Assembly (NCBI GenBank): GCA_016882305.1
Contig: VGQX01000019.1
Span: 1 to 33,453 of the forward strand
DNA from: Cyanobacteria bacterium K_Offshore_surface_m2_239
GTDB taxonomy: Bacteria > Cyanobacteriota > Cyanobacteriia > PCC-6307 > Cyanobiaceae
Reading direction: 5' to 3'
DNA: 33,453 nt
Below the pieces are notes generated by a model. The model was not told the origin of the DNA. It saw only the letters and a program-made list of their open reading frames with translations, and ran no database searches. This document shows, piece after piece, positions 11,289-18,638 of the stretch. How positions within the stretch are numbered: the stretch's first letter is position 1; each line of letters begins with the position of its first letter. A program made the position numbers and the translations under genes.

Positions 11289-13296
<2,008 letters not shown>

Positions 13297-13413: not shown

Positions 13414-14004
13414 TCAGGCCAAAGGCGCATTCCAACATCCCAACGCTGGCGTGCCCCGATAGTCGCTGAGCACGCTGATCGTCGTGGTGTCGAGCAGGAA
13501 GTTTTGGCCCGCCAGGGGAGGCAGCCCCAACCAACGAGCCGCCAACACCCGCAGCAGGTGGCCATGGGAAAACAACAGCGTCGGCCCCGGCCCCTGGCGC
13601 AGCCGCGCGATCACCCGATCCACCCGCGCCCCCACCGCATCGGGGCTCTCACCTTCGGGGCAACCGTCGCGAAACACCAGCCACCCCGGGGTCTCCGCTC
13701 CGATTTCGGCGCTGGTTCGCCCCTCATAGGCGCCGTAGTTCCACTCCATCAGGTCCGGGTCCAGCACCAAGCGCGGGCCGTAACCAGCCAGCTCGCCGGT
13801 GCGTCGCGCCCGCTCCAGCGGGCTGGCCCACACCCGCGCGAAGCTCAGAGATCCCAGCACAGGCCCCAAGGCCCGAGCGGCCGCCTCCCCGGCTGGAGTC
13901 AGCGGAAGGTCCGTGGCGCCAGTGTGCTGGCCTGACAGGCTCCAGGTCGTTTCCCCGTGACGCGCCAGCACCACATCAACAGGTCGAAGAGAAAGGAGGG
14001 GCAT
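13414..14004 (-). CDS. Histidine phosphatase family protein (phosphoglycerate mutase-like)
   Basis: The 196-aa protein has the catalytic RHG motif in LARHGETTW (R15, H16, G17), a family YGAYEGRTSAEI segment with the acidic catalytic residue nearby, and the second histidine in LLFSHGHLLRVLAARWLG. It is shorter than true phosphoglycerate mutases (about 230-250 aa), so a phosphatase of sugar phosphates or nucleotides is more likely. The ATG at 14002-14004 puts the RHG motif at the usual distance; the frame remains open upstream without family resemblance. It faces groEL, with the groESL terminator between. Confidence 0.88.
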   Translation of the reverse strand: MPLLSLRPVDVVLARHGETTWSLSGQHTGATDLPLTPAGEAAARALGPVLGSLSFARVWASPLERARRTGELAGYGPRLVLDPDLMEWNYGAYEGRTSAEIGAETPGWLVFRDGCPEGESPDAVGARVDRVIARLRQGPGPTLLFSHGHLLRVLAARWLGLPPLAGQNFLLDTTTISVLSDYRGTPALGCWNAPLA

Positions 14005-14354
14005 GATCGGAGAGAGGGTGAAACCGCGGTGGCACAATCCTGGCAACCGAGGCCACCGCGCTCTGTCCGCCACGCGTTCCCGCTCTCACCCCCTCAAGTC
14101 GCACGATCCGTTCCACGGCCTCGCTGGCGGCTGAAGCGCTCCCGCCCCCTGCCAGCCCCGCGGGCCGCCGCGGCCCCGGGACTGCTCTCCGGCTCGTTCC
14201 GCGAGCCCGTGTCAGGGATTGTTAAGAGACTGCTAAATCCCCCCATGAGGGGCGGCGCCATCAACCCCACCCCCTAGCATGGGTGGGAATGGCAAACGCG
14301 ACCACCAAAACCTACCAAATCGCCCAAGATTTGCCCACTCCAGATAGCCAACGC
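14005..14354. other. Intergenic and leader region before the siroheme reductase
   Basis: This stretch divides the minus-strand phosphatase from the siroheme reductase. The first 200 bases are very GC-rich. From about 14215 the sequence becomes AT-richer (GGGATTGTTAAGAGAC), followed by two small hairpins: CCCC-ATGA-GGGG at 14241-14252 and the CCCACCC/GGGTGGG inverted repeat at 14266-14287. No NtcA-type GTA-N8-TAC site was seen by eye. Alternative reductase starts (GTG 14283, ATG 14289) lie inside it. Confidence 0.5.
14266..14287 (+). promoter_or_regulatory. Inverted repeat at the siroheme reductase leader
   Basis: CCCACCC at 14266-14272 and GGGTGGG at 14281-14287 are exact reverse complements with an 8-base loop. 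The right arm covers the GTG at 14283 and ends just before the ATG at 14289, so a folded mRNA would hide these starts. It could regulate translation or mean that the true start is the later ATG at 14355. Confidence 0.45.
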
Positions 14355-16688
14355 ATGACCACGACCCAGCCCCAATCTTGGAAAGCCAAACTGGCCGAGA
14401 AGATTCCTCCCCAGATGGCAGATGAGATCGATACCTTTGAAAATCAAATGGTGTTGCGCTGTCAGGGAAAAATCGAAGACAAGGTCTTTGCTGAATTGCG
14501 TCTGCGTCGTGGTGCTTATGGTCAACGCTACGACAATGGCTTTCGCCATGATGGCGAGAAAACACAGGAGATCGCCTTCCCTCACCCCGAGCTGACCAAG
14601 GGGCCAGAGACGAAATGGGAAGCGCCAGGGATGCAGCGCATCAAGATTCCCTACGGAGGACTCTCCGCGGAGCAGATGGAAGTCCTCGCAGACATCGCCG
14701 AGGAATATTCCGACTCCATCCTTCACATCACCACTCGACAGGACATCCAACTCCATTTCCTCTCCCTGGAGGACACGCCGGACATGCACCGCCGCCTGGC
14801 AGCCGTGGGCATCACGGTGCGCGAAGCTTGCGGCAACTCTGTGCGCAACGTCACCGCCTGCCCTCTCGCTGGTGTCTGCCGTGATGAGGCCTTCGATGTC
14901 ACCGGTTACGCCAACGAGACCGCAAATTATTTCCTCGGCCATCGTGATGTTCAAGACTTTGGTCGCAAGTTCAAGATTGCCTTCTCCGGCTGCGCGCAAC
15001 ATCCCTGCGGCCTGACCTACATGCATGATCTCGGCCTGATCGCCAAGAAGCGTCAGCGCGAAGGCCAGGAAGAAATCGGTTTTGAACTTTATGTTGGCGG
15101 CGGTCTCGGTGCGGTGCCCCACCTGGCCAAGCTGTTCGACGATTTCGTGCCCCCTGAGGAATTGCTGCCTCTATCCCAGGCCATTGCGCGTGTCTACGCG
15201 CGGCTGGGAGAGAAGAAAAACCGTAACAAGGCTCGCATCAAATTCCTTGTGCAGAAGCTGGGCATTGACGAATTCCGCCGTCTCGTCCTGGAAGAGCGCG
15301 CCACCCTGGAGAATGATCCCGAGTGGACCCAGTGGCTGCAGGCGATTCCTCAGTACAGCGAAACTGGGCGACCTGAGCCTGTGACCGCCGGACAGGTGAT
15401 CGATCTTGGCGAAGACGCTGAGGCGTTTGCCCAGTGGAAAGCCACCAACATCTATGTCCAACGCCAACCCGGCTTCGCCTGCGTCACGCTCAATCTCCCC
15501 CTGGGGGACCTCACCGCCCAGCAGATGCGCGGCCTCGCCGATGTCGCCCGTCGTTTCACGCCAGACGCCACCCGCACCACGGTGGAGCAAAACCTCCTGC
15601 TCCGCTGGGTTCATGAACCTGATCTGCCAGCCCTCTATCTCGCGCTCAAGGCTCTGCGGCTCCACACCCCTGGAGCCCAGACCATCGCTGACGTGACCGC
15701 TTGCCCGGGCACTGACACCTGCAAGCTGGGGATTGCGAGCTCCCGCGGCCTGGCCGGCGAATTGCGGCAGCGCCTGGCCCACAAGGGCTATCAATACGAC
15801 GAGGCGTTGAAGGACATCCGCGTCAAAGTGAGCGGCTGCTTCAATTCCTGCAGCCAACACACCGTGGCCGAAATCGGCTTCTACGGCTCCAATCGTCTGA
15901 TCGATCGTCACCGCGTTCCCCATCTCCATCTGATCCTGGGTGGCGAATGGAGCAACAACGCAGCTCACTACGGGCAATCTCTCGGGGTGATCCCCACAAA
16001 ACGGGTGCCAGAGGTCGTTGATTTCCTGATTGATCTCTATCTCCAAGGGAAAAATCAGGGCGAAACCTTCTCCCAGTTTGTTAATCGCATCGGCAAGAAA
16101 GATATCAAAGAACGGGTGCAGCCATTCACCCACGTTCCCTCCTACGCAGAGGATCCCAGCTTCTACACCGATTGGGGCGATGCCCGTGAATACACGATTG
16201 GTGATATCGGCATCGGCGAATGCGCAGGTGAAGTTGTCTCCCTGACCAATTTTGACGTCGCCAGGGCAGAAAGCCTCAACTTTGAGGCCACTCTCTTGCT
16301 GGATGGCGGAGACATGAATGGGAATGTGCAACAAGCCGCGGACAAAGCACTGGCGGCGATGGTCAAGGCTGCCCAGGCGGTTTTGAAGGCACAGAACGTG
16401 GACATCGCTGACGATGCAGCGGTCATCATCCGTGACTTCCGTCGCTATTTCTATGATACTGAGTTGTTCTTTGATCCATTCGTCAAGGGCAAATTTGCAA
16501 GCTACCTTTTCAATGCCTATGACAATCGCCAAGCTCCGGCCTCCTTTGATCGCGCACGTCAGGCTGTGGAAGAAGCGCGTCTGTTCATTGAGGCAGCCTA
16601 CGAATGCCACTCCCGCATGATGCAGGCTGGGATCAACTCTCCTGGTGCCTTCACTCAGTGGTATGAGACGCGTGTGCCCGTGAGCTGA
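14355..16688 (+). CDS. Siroheme nitrite/sulfite reductase with C-terminal HEPN-like extension
   Basis: This ferredoxin-type nitrite/sulfite reductase (777 aa from ATG 14355; ATG 14289 would add 22) reduces nitrite or sulfite by six electrons at a coupled siroheme-4Fe4S centre. It has the tandem ferredoxin-like and NIR/SIR repeats. The second half has the cluster cysteines C450-x5-C456 (ACPGTDTC) and C495-x3-C499 (SGCFNSC). The first half also keeps a pair-like set, C169-x5-C175 (ACPLAGVC) and C213-x4-C218 (GCAQHPC). After IGIGECAGEV, near residue 620, follows a roughly 140-residue helical tail, absent from ordinary cyanobacterial Sir (about 600-650 aa) and resembling the HEPN tail of Bacteroidetes-type reductases. 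Whether sulfite or nitrite is the substrate cannot be decided here. Codons are visibly less GC-rich than most neighbours. The downstream gene at 16758 probably shares its transcript. Confidence 0.87.
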   Translation: MTTTQPQSWKAKLAEKIPPQMADEIDTFENQMVLRCQGKIEDKVFAELRLRRGAYGQRYDNGFRHDGEKTQEIAFPHPELTKGPETKWEAPGMQRIKIPYGGLSAEQMEVLADIAEEYSDSILHITTRQDIQLHFLSLEDTPDMHRRLAAVGITVREACGNSVRNVTACPLAGVCRDEAFDVTGYANETANYFLGHRDVQDFGRKFKIAFSGCAQHPCGLTYMHDLGLIAKKRQREGQEEIGFELYVGGGLGAVPHLAKLFDDFVPPEELLPLSQAIARVYARLGEKKNRNKARIKFLVQKLGIDEFRRLVLEERATLENDPEWTQWLQAIPQYSETGRPEPVTAGQVIDLGEDAEAFAQWKATNIYVQRQPGFACVTLNLPLGDLTAQQMRGLADVARRFTPDATRTTVEQNLLLRWVHEPDLPALYLALKALRLHTPGAQTIADVTACPGTDTCKLGIASSRGLAGELRQRLAHKGYQYDEALKDIRVKVSGCFNSCSQHTVAEIGFYGSNRLIDRHRVPHLHLILGGEWSNNAAHYGQSLGVIPTKRVPEVVDFLIDLYLQGKNQGETFSQFVNRIGKKDIKERVQPFTHVPSYAEDPSFYTDWGDAREYTIGDIGIGECAGEVVSLTNFDVARAESLNFEATLLLDGGDMNGNVQQAADKALAAMVKAAQAVLKAQNVDIADDAAVIIRDFRRYFYDTELFFDPFVKGKFASYLFNAYDNRQAPASFDRARQAVEEARLFIEAAYECHSRMMQAGINSPGAFTQWYETRVPVS

Positions 16689-16757: not shown

Positions 16758-17324
16758 ATGGATGTTGAGCGTTTTTATCTGAAATTCTTTGCCCGTGAAA
16801 ATGCGATTGATGAAACCGGCTTCATTCCCATTTTTCATGACTGGATTCGCTTGAAATCCTTGCCCGGCACCTTGATTGATGTGGCGGACTACCGCCACGT
16901 CCCTGATGGTCCGGGGATCATGTTGATCAGCTTCGAAATCAATTACGCCATGGAGCACGGCGGTGGCCAATTTGGTCTCTCCGCCCAACGCAAACTCGGT
17001 TCTGACGGGAGCCATTCTGAGCGAATCGTGGAGCTTGCCAAACGCACAGCGTTGTTTGGCAGCCTGCTGGAAGCGGATAGCCGCCTCAACGGTGCCCTGA
17101 CCCTGGACGGCGGTCGCTTTCTCTATGCCGCCAATGATCGGCTGCGCCTTCCGAACACCGCGGACGCTTTCGCGGCTCTTCAGCCTGACCTGCAGGCAGC
17201 CGCGGCGACGCTCTATGGCGATCAGCCGTTCACTGTGAAGCGCGTGGAGAATGATCCTCGCGAGCGACTGACCGCCCTCGTGGAGACATCTGGTCCTGTT
17301 CCCATCGCCGCCCTCGCCGGTTAA
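16758..17324 (+). CDS. Unrecognised protein, probable partner of the siroheme reductase
   Basis: The 188-aa product (MDVERFYLKFFARENAI...) is not a family I can name. It appears soluble, with an aromatic N-terminal half (FIPIFHDWIRL, VADYRHVPDGPG, INYAMEHGGGQFGL), a possible nucleotide- or ligand-type Gly cluster and a more variable helical C-terminus. No signal peptide, membrane segment or cysteine pair is present. It follows the reductase by 69 bases on the same strand with the same lower-GC codon use, which suggests co-transcription and a linked role, for example assembly or electron delivery. Its TAA overlaps the stop of the next, convergent gene in a TTAA palindrome (17321-17324). Confidence 0.75.
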   Translation: MDVERFYLKFFARENAIDETGFIPIFHDWIRLKSLPGTLIDVADYRHVPDGPGIMLISFEINYAMEHGGGQFGLSAQRKLGSDGSHSERIVELAKRTALFGSLLEADSRLNGALTLDGGRFLYAANDRLRLPNTADAFAALQPDLQAAAATLYGDQPFTVKRVENDPRERLTALVETSGPVPIAALAG

Positions 17325-17584: not shown

Positions 17585-18004
17585 TCACCCCGCGACGGGG
17601 CCGTCGTCCCCGGGGTCGGCATCAGCGGACACCGTCATTGGCATGGCCTCCCTCCATTGCGGGGAGACCGAAGAATCCTGGGGAACCAGCCCGTCCGGAG
17701 CGAGCGATGGCTCCTTCGGCGGCTTCAGCTGCGGAGACTCGGGGAGCTCGCGAACGGCTGGCGCCCGGTGCAGCTCCCGCTCGAGCATGCGAATGCGACT
17801 CTCGCGCAGACAATACTTGCAGCCTCCGCTGGTTTGCAGATGCTTCTCAGGAGTGATACTGATCAGCTTGACGGGATGGAGACGACAACGAATAAGAAGC
17901 GGCGATTTATAACTCTTATACACGATTTCACTGTAATCATAGTGATCAGCAAAGCGGGCGCGGGCGCGTTGCAAAAATGTTTCCTTGCTGATGGGGCTTC
18001 CCAT
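17585..18004 (-). CDS. Treble-clef zinc-finger-like protein, unknown function
   Basis: The 139-aa product starts FLQRARARFADHYDYSEIVY and continues LIRCRLHPVKLISITPEKHL, GGCKYC. This layout (aromatic YDYS, then C40-x2-H43 and C62-x2-C65) resembles the DUF723-type treble-clef domain common in phage and mobile-element proteins, where it probably binds nucleic acid. The second half, from about residue 75, is Pro/Glu-rich and looks disordered. The 5' half of the gene is clearly lower in GC than the surroundings, compatible with transfer. It is the first gene of a probable two-gene minus-strand unit. Confidence 0.68.
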   Translation of the reverse strand: MGSPISKETFLQRARARFADHYDYSEIVYKSYKSPLLIRCRLHPVKLISITPEKHLQTSGGCKYCLRESRIRMLERELHRAPAVRELPESPQLKPPKEPSLAPDGLVPQDSSVSPQWREAMPMTVSADADPGDDGPVAG

Positions 18005-18122: not shown

Positions 18123-18638
18123 TCAACCTTGAGCGGCCGGCTCAAACACCAGAGCCACCCCGTTGTTGCAGTAGCGCAACCCTGTCGGGCGGGGACCATC
18201 CTTGAACACATGACCCTGATGGCCACCGCAACGACGGCAGTGATATTCCGTGCGCGGCACGATCAACTTGAAATCCACCTTGGTCGCCACCGCATCTGAG
18301 AGGGGCTGCCAGAAACTGGGCCAACCGGTGCCGCTGTCGAATTTCGCGCTGGAGGAAAACAGAGGCAAGCGACAGCCAGCGCAGAGGAAGCGACCTTGAC
18401 GTTTTTCCTTGTTCAAGGCGCTGCTGAACGGAGGCTCCGTGCCCTCCTGGCGCAAGACCTTGTAAGCCTGGGGGGACAGACGCTTTTTCCATTCCGCTTC
18501 GCTCAACGCCCAGCGTGGATCGGCGGCTTTGGAGGCAGCGTCAGCGCGCTGACCCCAACTGAGCAGAGGAAGGGCACCCAACAGGCCTTGAATCAACCGT
18601 TCCACGCTGACCTTCATCAGTTCACGACGGGTGGACAC
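18123..18638 (-). CDS. msrB: Peptide-methionine (R)-S-oxide reductase MsrB, exported
   Basis: MsrB reduces the R form of methionine sulfoxide in proteins. The 171-aa protein has the zinc CxxC pairs (CAGC and CRRC), the GTGWPSFWQPL motif, the HCRRCGGHQGHVFKDGP segment and the catalytic cysteine in GLRYCNN. The N-terminus reads STRRELMK followed by a mildly hydrophobic stretch ending in ADA, which fits a twin-arginine signal peptide, so the enzyme may act in the periplasm or thylakoid lumen. The start is GTG at 18636-18638; an in-frame ATG at 18615-18617 would drop the RR pair. It is five bases after secG, third in a gpmI-secG-msrB unit. Confidence 0.93.
   Translation of the reverse strand: MSTRRELMKVSVERLIQGLLGALPLLSWGQRADAASKAADPRWALSEAEWKKRLSPQAYKVLRQEGTEPPFSSALNKEKRQGRFLCAGCRLPLFSSSAKFDSGTGWPSFWQPLSDAVATKVDFKLIVPRTEYHCRRCGGHQGHVFKDGPRPTGLRYCNNGVALVFEPAAQG

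Follow-up and report, generated by a model that had tools for sequence, protein, structure and literature searches.

A putative long-form siroheme sulfite reductase and its partner gene, probably acquired laterally in place of Sir, in a Cyanobiaceae genome

Introduction

By what enzyme is sulfite reduced in a cyanobacterium whose genome assembly yields no canonical sulfite reductase (Sir)? The question is raised by Cyanobacteria bacterium K_Offshore_surface_m2_239 (Cyanobiaceae), in which the window analysed here, a stretch of 33,453 nucleotides (contig VGQX01000019.1), contains the gene of an unusually long siroheme reductase at 14355–16688 on the forward strand. We consider it probable that this gene and the one that follows it (16758–17324, forward strand) constitute a laterally acquired two-gene assimilatory sulfite reductase which replaced the native Sir, and that the enzyme binds a second [4Fe-4S] cluster. 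An earlier description of the window, made from its letters only (the sequence-only reading), had singled out the reductase and overlooked the partner gene.

The long-form reductase and its relatives

The frame encodes 777 residues and is free of internal stops; an alternative in-frame GTG lies upstream at 14283, and the N-termini of relatives agree with the start at 14355. Pfam matches to NIR_SIR and NIR_SIR_ferr, two stretches each (182 and 124 bits), place the protein in the siroheme sulfite/nitrite reductase superfamily. It scores below the curated cut-off of all eleven NCBIfam models matched, including TIGR02042 (sir; 104.5 bits versus 731.5) and the NirA models NF007125 (221.5 versus 594) and NF007126 (264.8 versus 523). 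The earlier estimate of about 150 residues in excess of a usual enzyme is about right, canonical cyanobacterial Sir rows having 586–770 residues (some untrimmed at the start) and NirA rows 472–559, as extracted.

In a scan of 84,980 genomes, one per species, at least 576 relatives were confirmed, and the best 80 (L076–L155) were taken. Of these, 78 match the protein to residue 746 or further, and the tail is thus covered. Among the best 80, the closest full-length relatives are 51–77% identical to the window protein, the nearest two being cyanobacterial (76%). By their titles they belong to Chloroflexota, Acidobacteriota, Gemmatimonadota, Myxococcota, Latescibacterota, SAR324, Spirochaetia, Actinomycetota and Fibrobacteres, with a few Pseudomonadota, a few cyanobacteria and others. 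One copy, 53% identical to the window protein, comes from a metagenome-assembled genome (MAG) labelled Bifidobacterium breve (L149), a label that looks doubtful for the contig. The long-form family was not found in literature searches, which covered open-licence papers.

Residues were compared in 81 intact sequences: the window protein, those of 77 of the 80 loci and another three from cyanobacteria. The count left out two cyanobacterial copies (L073, L075) and three genes with in-frame stops (L109, L137, L142), which could be frameshifts or sequencing errors; six control rows (L041, L044, L046, L156, L158, L159) were kept out of the motif comparison and used in the tree.

Absence of Sir and the inferred function

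Whether the genome also has canonical sir and nirA, a question posed by the sequence-only reading, has a split answer. Two NIR_SIR genes were found, the long form and a NirA gene on contig C6; canonical Sir was not found in the assembly. Sir scores above its cut-off in 36 of the 40 genomes compared, including all 24 other genomes of the same genus. Four fall below it: G182, by a narrow margin, the host, and two further carriers of the long form, G172 and G175. In a sample of the class, the long form occurs in none of the 180 genomes with Sir at an expectation value (E) ≤1e-100 (187 matches minus 7 outside the class) and in four of the six without it, these six being read from the kinship order of the list (Fisher 3e-7, for lineages that are not independent, three of the four being of one genus). 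Two further Sir-less cyanobacteria outside the class sample have the long form as well. Furthermore, the site of sir is closed in the host. The order in the relative G062 is glyS, sir, a small gene, a vanX-like gene and recG; the host has glyS, the vanX-like gene and recG on a single contig, with some 0.6 kb in the gap and nothing there that matches sir.

The genomic context of relatives is that of sulfur and siroheme metabolism in some cases. Within up to 8 kb on each side of the 80 relatives' loci, we found CysH-like genes in 22, cobA-like in 21, precorrin-2 dehydrogenase-like in 21 and CbiX-like in nine, with at least one of them in 26 loci. The long form is the sole NIR_SIR gene found in 29 of the 47 relatives' genomes searched. 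A gene with a PAPS_reduct domain, which occurs in CysD as well, is present in the host.

The active site was compared residue by residue. K205-F-K207 (14967–14975), a lysine pair of the sulfite reductase type, is invariant in all 81 sequences, and so are R95, K97, R128, R164, Y55, C159 and C623. At the positions of the pair, three Sir rows have K,K and three NirA rows K,N. The arginines and lysines of the first half would bind sulfite; the four positive residues of MjFsr are perfectly conserved across sulfite reductases according to PMC10229431. As a separate observation, G232 and G175 encode an extra NIR_SIR protein of about 500 residues (L168, L170) with a different active-site pattern (K,S). 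Taken together, the absence of Sir, the K-X-K site and the genes for CysH-like proteins and siroheme synthesis near the long form of some relatives suggest that the enzyme serves ordinary sulfite assimilation; the alternative electron-acceptor role that had been entertained from the sequence is not supported.

A nitrite or dual nitrite/sulfite reductase, serving nitrogen assimilation or detoxification, has to be weighed here. The closest solved structure is NirA of M. tuberculosis, and NirA-type profiles score highest among the NCBIfam models, yet below their cut-offs. However, a further NIR_SIR gene, as long as a NirA gene, is present in the host and in each of the other five cyanobacteria with the long form, and five of these six genes group as NirA in the tree, the exception being that of G266. 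The long form is found where Sir, not NirA, is absent, and its K-X-K differs from the K-X-N of NirA rows and tobacco nitrite reductases. Moreover, NirA of M. tuberculosis has K-X-K in the alignment and is itself titled a sulfite reductase by Schnell et al. 2005 (cited in PMC8092218). We therefore regard a nitrite function as quite improbable.

Phylogeny and lateral transfer

The tree was obtained by a quick search with Shimodaira–Hasegawa-like approximate likelihood ratio (SH-aLRT) support only, and included 43 of the 81 long-form rows with their tails removed. These 43 rows lie on one side of a branch (99) and six Sir rows on another (100), with Sir and NirA distant; the gene does not nest with vertical cyanobacterial Sir, the placement that would have refuted the sequence-only reading. 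The window protein groups with five cyanobacterial copies (SH-aLRT 96), and the cyanobacterial long forms adjoin an Anaerolineae MAG (100) within a group that includes Gemmatimonadota (99). Outgroups are two Bacteroidota rows (84), Thermus (95) and S. meliloti (94), some on long branches; long branches were flagged for S. meliloti, Thermus and the host NirA, and odd composition for four rows.

Among 151 genomes of the host's family, a full-length match was found in the host only, among the matches listed. Lateral transfer, which the sequence-only reading had offered as an inference, is supported by this absence from relatives, by the empty site described below and by the tree. A donor among the Bacteroidota, suggested by the same reading, was rejected: the two Bacteroidota proteins included share 32–35% identity with the window protein, are without the first-half cysteines, show no partner homologue in the stretches compared, and both fall outside the long-form clade. 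Between the cyanobacterial genera compared, the reductase and the partner are common and the neighbours differ within the stretches compared, which suggests that the pair moves together. Among cyanobacteria, a central enzyme seems to have been replaced more than once by a two-gene unit; in the host, the pair would have been acquired laterally and replaced a native ferredoxin-type Sir.

The partner gene

The partner gene (16758–17324, forward strand) encodes 188 residues that belong to no Pfam or NCBIfam family. A homologue is next on the same strand in all 77 loci in which the contig continues, the remaining three stopping at the contig end; its start, as chosen by script, lies −10 to 200 nucleotides from the reductase stop in 75 of the 77 (median 14). 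In 386 genomes of the phylum, its occurrence coincides with that of the long form (four genomes), except for one weak match (42 residues, E 8e-4, within a frame of 2595 residues) that we took as chance. Divergence of the partner mirrors that of the reductase (r 0.62 over 71 loci, versus a maximum of 0.17 in 999 permutations), a correlation that could stem from shared ancestry alone.

An alignment of the window's partner with the 73 of 77 homologues that are of usable length revealed five invariant residues, D41, Y45, H47, P52 and R128. Its cysteines are unconserved, and 24 of the 74 members have none, an observation that speaks against a redox subunit binding a cluster. At E ≤0.01, Pfam and NCBIfam gave no match for any of the 74, nucleotidyltransferase models included. 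The structural model is of high confidence (predicted local distance difference test, pLDDT, 96.3). No Foldseek match was found at E ≤0.001; neither the best one (AdoMet decarboxylase, E 0.016) nor the best structural Z score (7.7, phosphoglucomutase, with TBP rows close) is trusted, and there is no clear relative in the PDB. The partner family is thus a candidate new family, previously unnamed. Its members would most likely be accessory subunits or maturation factors of the reductase. In G172, a gene for an Rrf2-family regulator (L065:8002-8535) stands directly after the two-gene cassette.

Two cysteine sets

The sequence-only reading had noticed a CX5C motif and a second cysteine pair in each half, and all eight cysteines proved invariant in the 81 sequences, the window included. 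Those of the second half, C450, C456, C495 and C499 (15702–15851), form the canonical siroheme-[4Fe-4S] arrangement CX5C-Xn-CX3C and would hold the siroheme-linked cluster. Since the scan pattern included C450 and C456, the invariance of these two is in part a product of the search; no cysteine of the first-half set belonged to the pattern. That set comprises C169, C175, C213 and C218 (CX5C ... CX4C; 14859–15008). None of its cysteines is present in the three canonical Sir, three NirA, two Bacteroidota and one S. meliloti rows compared, and the Thermus relative keeps two of the four. Judged by eye, the CX5C pair and C218 match the positions of the second-half cluster ligands, and C213 does so with a one-residue insertion. 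By this homology, the first-half set would most likely bind a second [4Fe-4S] cluster, which may store or relay ferredoxin electrons for the six-electron reduction.

Might these cysteines instead hold a structural zinc ion, make disulfides or act as a redox switch, with no cluster at all? The CX4C spacing departs from the canonical CX3C, and the incomplete set of the Thermus relative fits such a role. Against it stand the positional match with the second-half ligands and the invariance of all four residues, and on balance we find a cluster-free first half unlikely, if well worth considering.

A further possibility starts from the statement in PMC10229431 that duplication and fusion gave rise to the assimilatory sulfite reductases, which retained a single siroheme-[4Fe-4S] site. 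This single-chain assimilatory enzyme could have both halves filled, by two [4Fe-4S] clusters and perhaps a second, structural siroheme, and work with an obligate partner, in a fused DsrAB-like state. Such a state is what the duplication–fusion model predicts before the loss of one site, but we consider it rather unlikely here. By eye, no arginines of the second half correspond to R128 and R164, and on this residue comparison a second catalytic site there looks unlikely.

The tail, the junction and the extra stretch

A model of the reductase was built, without cofactors, from 67 of 78 sequence rows (the window and 77 intact loci) and reached a mean pLDDT of 85.7 and a predicted template modelling score of 0.85. 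Its top structural match is NirA of M. tuberculosis (1zj8, residues 23–588, Z 36.1); sulfite reductases match at Z 27–31 (maize SiR 5h8y, 31.3).

The helical tail had been likened to HEPN domains in the sequence-only reading, and this holds for the fold and fails for the profile. Residues 627–756 (16233–16622) match 2hsb at Z 15.0 (119 residues aligned, 2.8 Å), on a scale on which helical models typically reach Z 14 without known kinship and a fold match is not proof of kinship. Other HEPN structures follow (1wol 12.7, 1ufb 12.4, 3o10 12.3). Among the 14 rows that cover the tail, with Z from 15.0 to 8.8, seven are titled HEPN, four are toxin–antitoxin entries and three carry no such name; the titles were taken as support for the HEPN fold. 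In the four toxin–antitoxin entries, the toxin is presumably the HEPN protein. By contrast, the Pfam HEPN profile (PF05168) does not match the window protein at E ≤1; the tails of the Bacteroidota relatives match it at E 0.004 and 0.02, under the gathering score. The junction before the tail, GECAG (residues 621–625, 16215–16229, with the invariant C623), is present in both Bacteroidota proteins aligned, as expected from the Bacteroidetes-like junction pointed out earlier.

HEPN-fold toxins among the structural matches raise the question of whether tail and partner are a toxin, ribonuclease (RNase)-type or regulatory module fused to metabolism. This is very improbable. An Rx4-6H pattern of any kind occurs in 30 of the 81 tails and at its commonest position in 16, so a HEPN domain of the RNase type was rejected. 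In addition, Pfam and NCBIfam, nucleotidyltransferase models among them, gave no match for the partner, which is strictly linked to the reductase (77/77). In the assimilatory enzyme that we favour, the HEPN-fold bundle would most likely be an assembly or docking module.

Residues 58–91 (14526–14627) form an extra stretch near the N-terminus, recognized by alignment, conservation and the model. It is missing from the Bacteroidota, Thermus and S. meliloti relatives, and canonical Sir rows have 37 other residues there. Its mean conservation (0.72) equals that of the core, and it is poorly ordered in the model (pLDDT blocks 44–49). The stretch is a possible interface, to which the partner may bind.

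The insertion site

The cassette lies between groEL, which ends at 13296, and msrB (18123–18638, reverse strand), a SelR-domain gene that marks the right flank of the insertion site; gpmI is downstream of msrB. The names groEL and gpmI follow the sequence-only reading. That reading had placed the reductase gene between this pair correctly; besides it, the interval holds the partner gene, msrB and two more frames. A histidine phosphatase gene (13414–14073, reverse strand, by domain match) separates groEL from the reductase gene and is outside the cassette. A short frame of 139 residues (17585–18004, reverse strand) stands between the partner gene and msrB, with no Pfam match at E ≤0.01 and no match at the G090 and G161 sites; its start resembles a domain of homing-endonuclease-like proteins.

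The groEL–msrB interval spans 4.8 kb in the host. Direct reading of the same interval in two relatives gave 1.9 kb (G090) and 2.5 kb (G161), in both cases without the reductase gene; for these two, its suspected absence from related genomes is thereby borne out at the site itself. DNA comparison with eight relatives gave a spacing of about 2–2.6 kb in G090, G161, G132, G166 and G159 (where gpmI is on a separate contig), 4.5 kb in G153 and 15 kb in G152; in G062 the blocks are apart. The phosphatase gene was dropped as a marker of the empty site in favour of groEL–msrB–gpmI, since its homologue lies about 10 kb from a nirA-type gene in G090, G161, G166, G153 and G132; the phosphatase gene here thus seems relocated too. 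GC content in kilobase windows is slightly lower over the cassette (0.54–0.61 versus 0.59–0.67 around it), which is not decisive. A promoter scan gave three promoter-like sites, all on the minus strand, and a terminator scan five terminator-like sites versus 4.0 expected.

The assembly is a draft of 343 contigs with 3.3% estimated contamination, and the host's being alone in its family sample might suggest an assembly artefact or a contaminant contig. However, genes of the same genus stand on both sides of the cassette on one contig (groEL 95.8%, msrB 72.8% and gpmI 77.5% to G090), sir is absent from its own site, and other cyanobacteria hold the cassette in copies most similar to the window's. 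An artefact is scarcely credible.

Weighing the replacement of Sir

Several observations count against a laterally acquired sulfite reductase with a second cluster. The first-half spacing is CX4C rather than CX3C, and zinc or disulfides at these cysteines are possible, the model being cofactor-free; their invariance is limited to near relatives, the loci being the best 80 of at least 576. The tail's Z of 15 is barely above the best typical of unrelated helical models (14). As for the absence of Sir, the draft assembly is 95.6% complete, the search for the long form in the phylum was confined to the two top candidates of each genome, and both Sir and the long form are missing from G232 and G263, perhaps because of an assembly gap or because another sulfite reductase takes their place. 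The window copy has none of the sought sulfur or siroheme genes beside it, and among the 40 relatives' loci that extend 5 kb or more in both directions, just 11 have such a neighbour. With these points counted, replacement of Sir by the two-gene unit is still the explanation that we hold probable.

A widespread family with both cysteine sets intact, present in many bacteria that have been little studied, makes the duplication–fusion scenario testable and could show the origin of today's sulfite reductases. On the sequence comparison, the second ligand set is complete in the long-form family, whether retained or regained. Simple counting on the tree does not favour retention: the outgroups carry either no first-half cysteines or two of the four, and a later gain is at least as likely. 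Annotation probably files long forms under a generic name: the Persicobacter and Thermus relatives are annotated ‘nitrite/sulfite reductase’, and the long-form records are without annotation. The partner adds a conserved protein family that has no name yet and no close structural counterpart in the PDB.

Comparison with known systems

The long form shares with cyanobacterial Sir (TIGR02042) and NirA the two NIR_SIR/NIR_SIR_ferr halves, the second-half CX5C-Xn-CX3C motif and the first-half lysines, and would do the same job as Sir. It differs from both in its separate branch of the tree, the first-half cysteines, the 58–91 stretch, the HEPN-fold tail and the partner gene.

NirA of M. tuberculosis, the top fold match, has neither the first-half cysteine set in the aligned region nor the HEPN-fold tail. 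The C159 of the long form aligns with the cysteine of its EACG motif, which by our own count is Cys161 after an 11-residue chain offset. We take Cys161 to be the cysteine of the Cys–Tyr pair.

The nearest outgroups are the Bacteroidota and Thermus ‘nitrite/sulfite reductases’ (L069, L071 and L070). The Bacteroidota proteins share GECAG and a sub-threshold HEPN match, but differ from the long form in sequence and in the missing first-half set. The Thermus copy has 574 residues and no tail, and adjoins genes for PAPS reductase and ATP sulfurylase. No partner homologue is present in the Bacteroidota and Thermus stretches compared.

Finally, DsrAB and Fsr are built of siroheme-[4Fe-4S] modules as well. 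As described in PMC10229431, DsrAB consists of separate subunits and Fsr of a single module with an F420 oxidase. They differ from the long form in an inserted ferredoxin domain and in a dissimilatory or detoxifying role.

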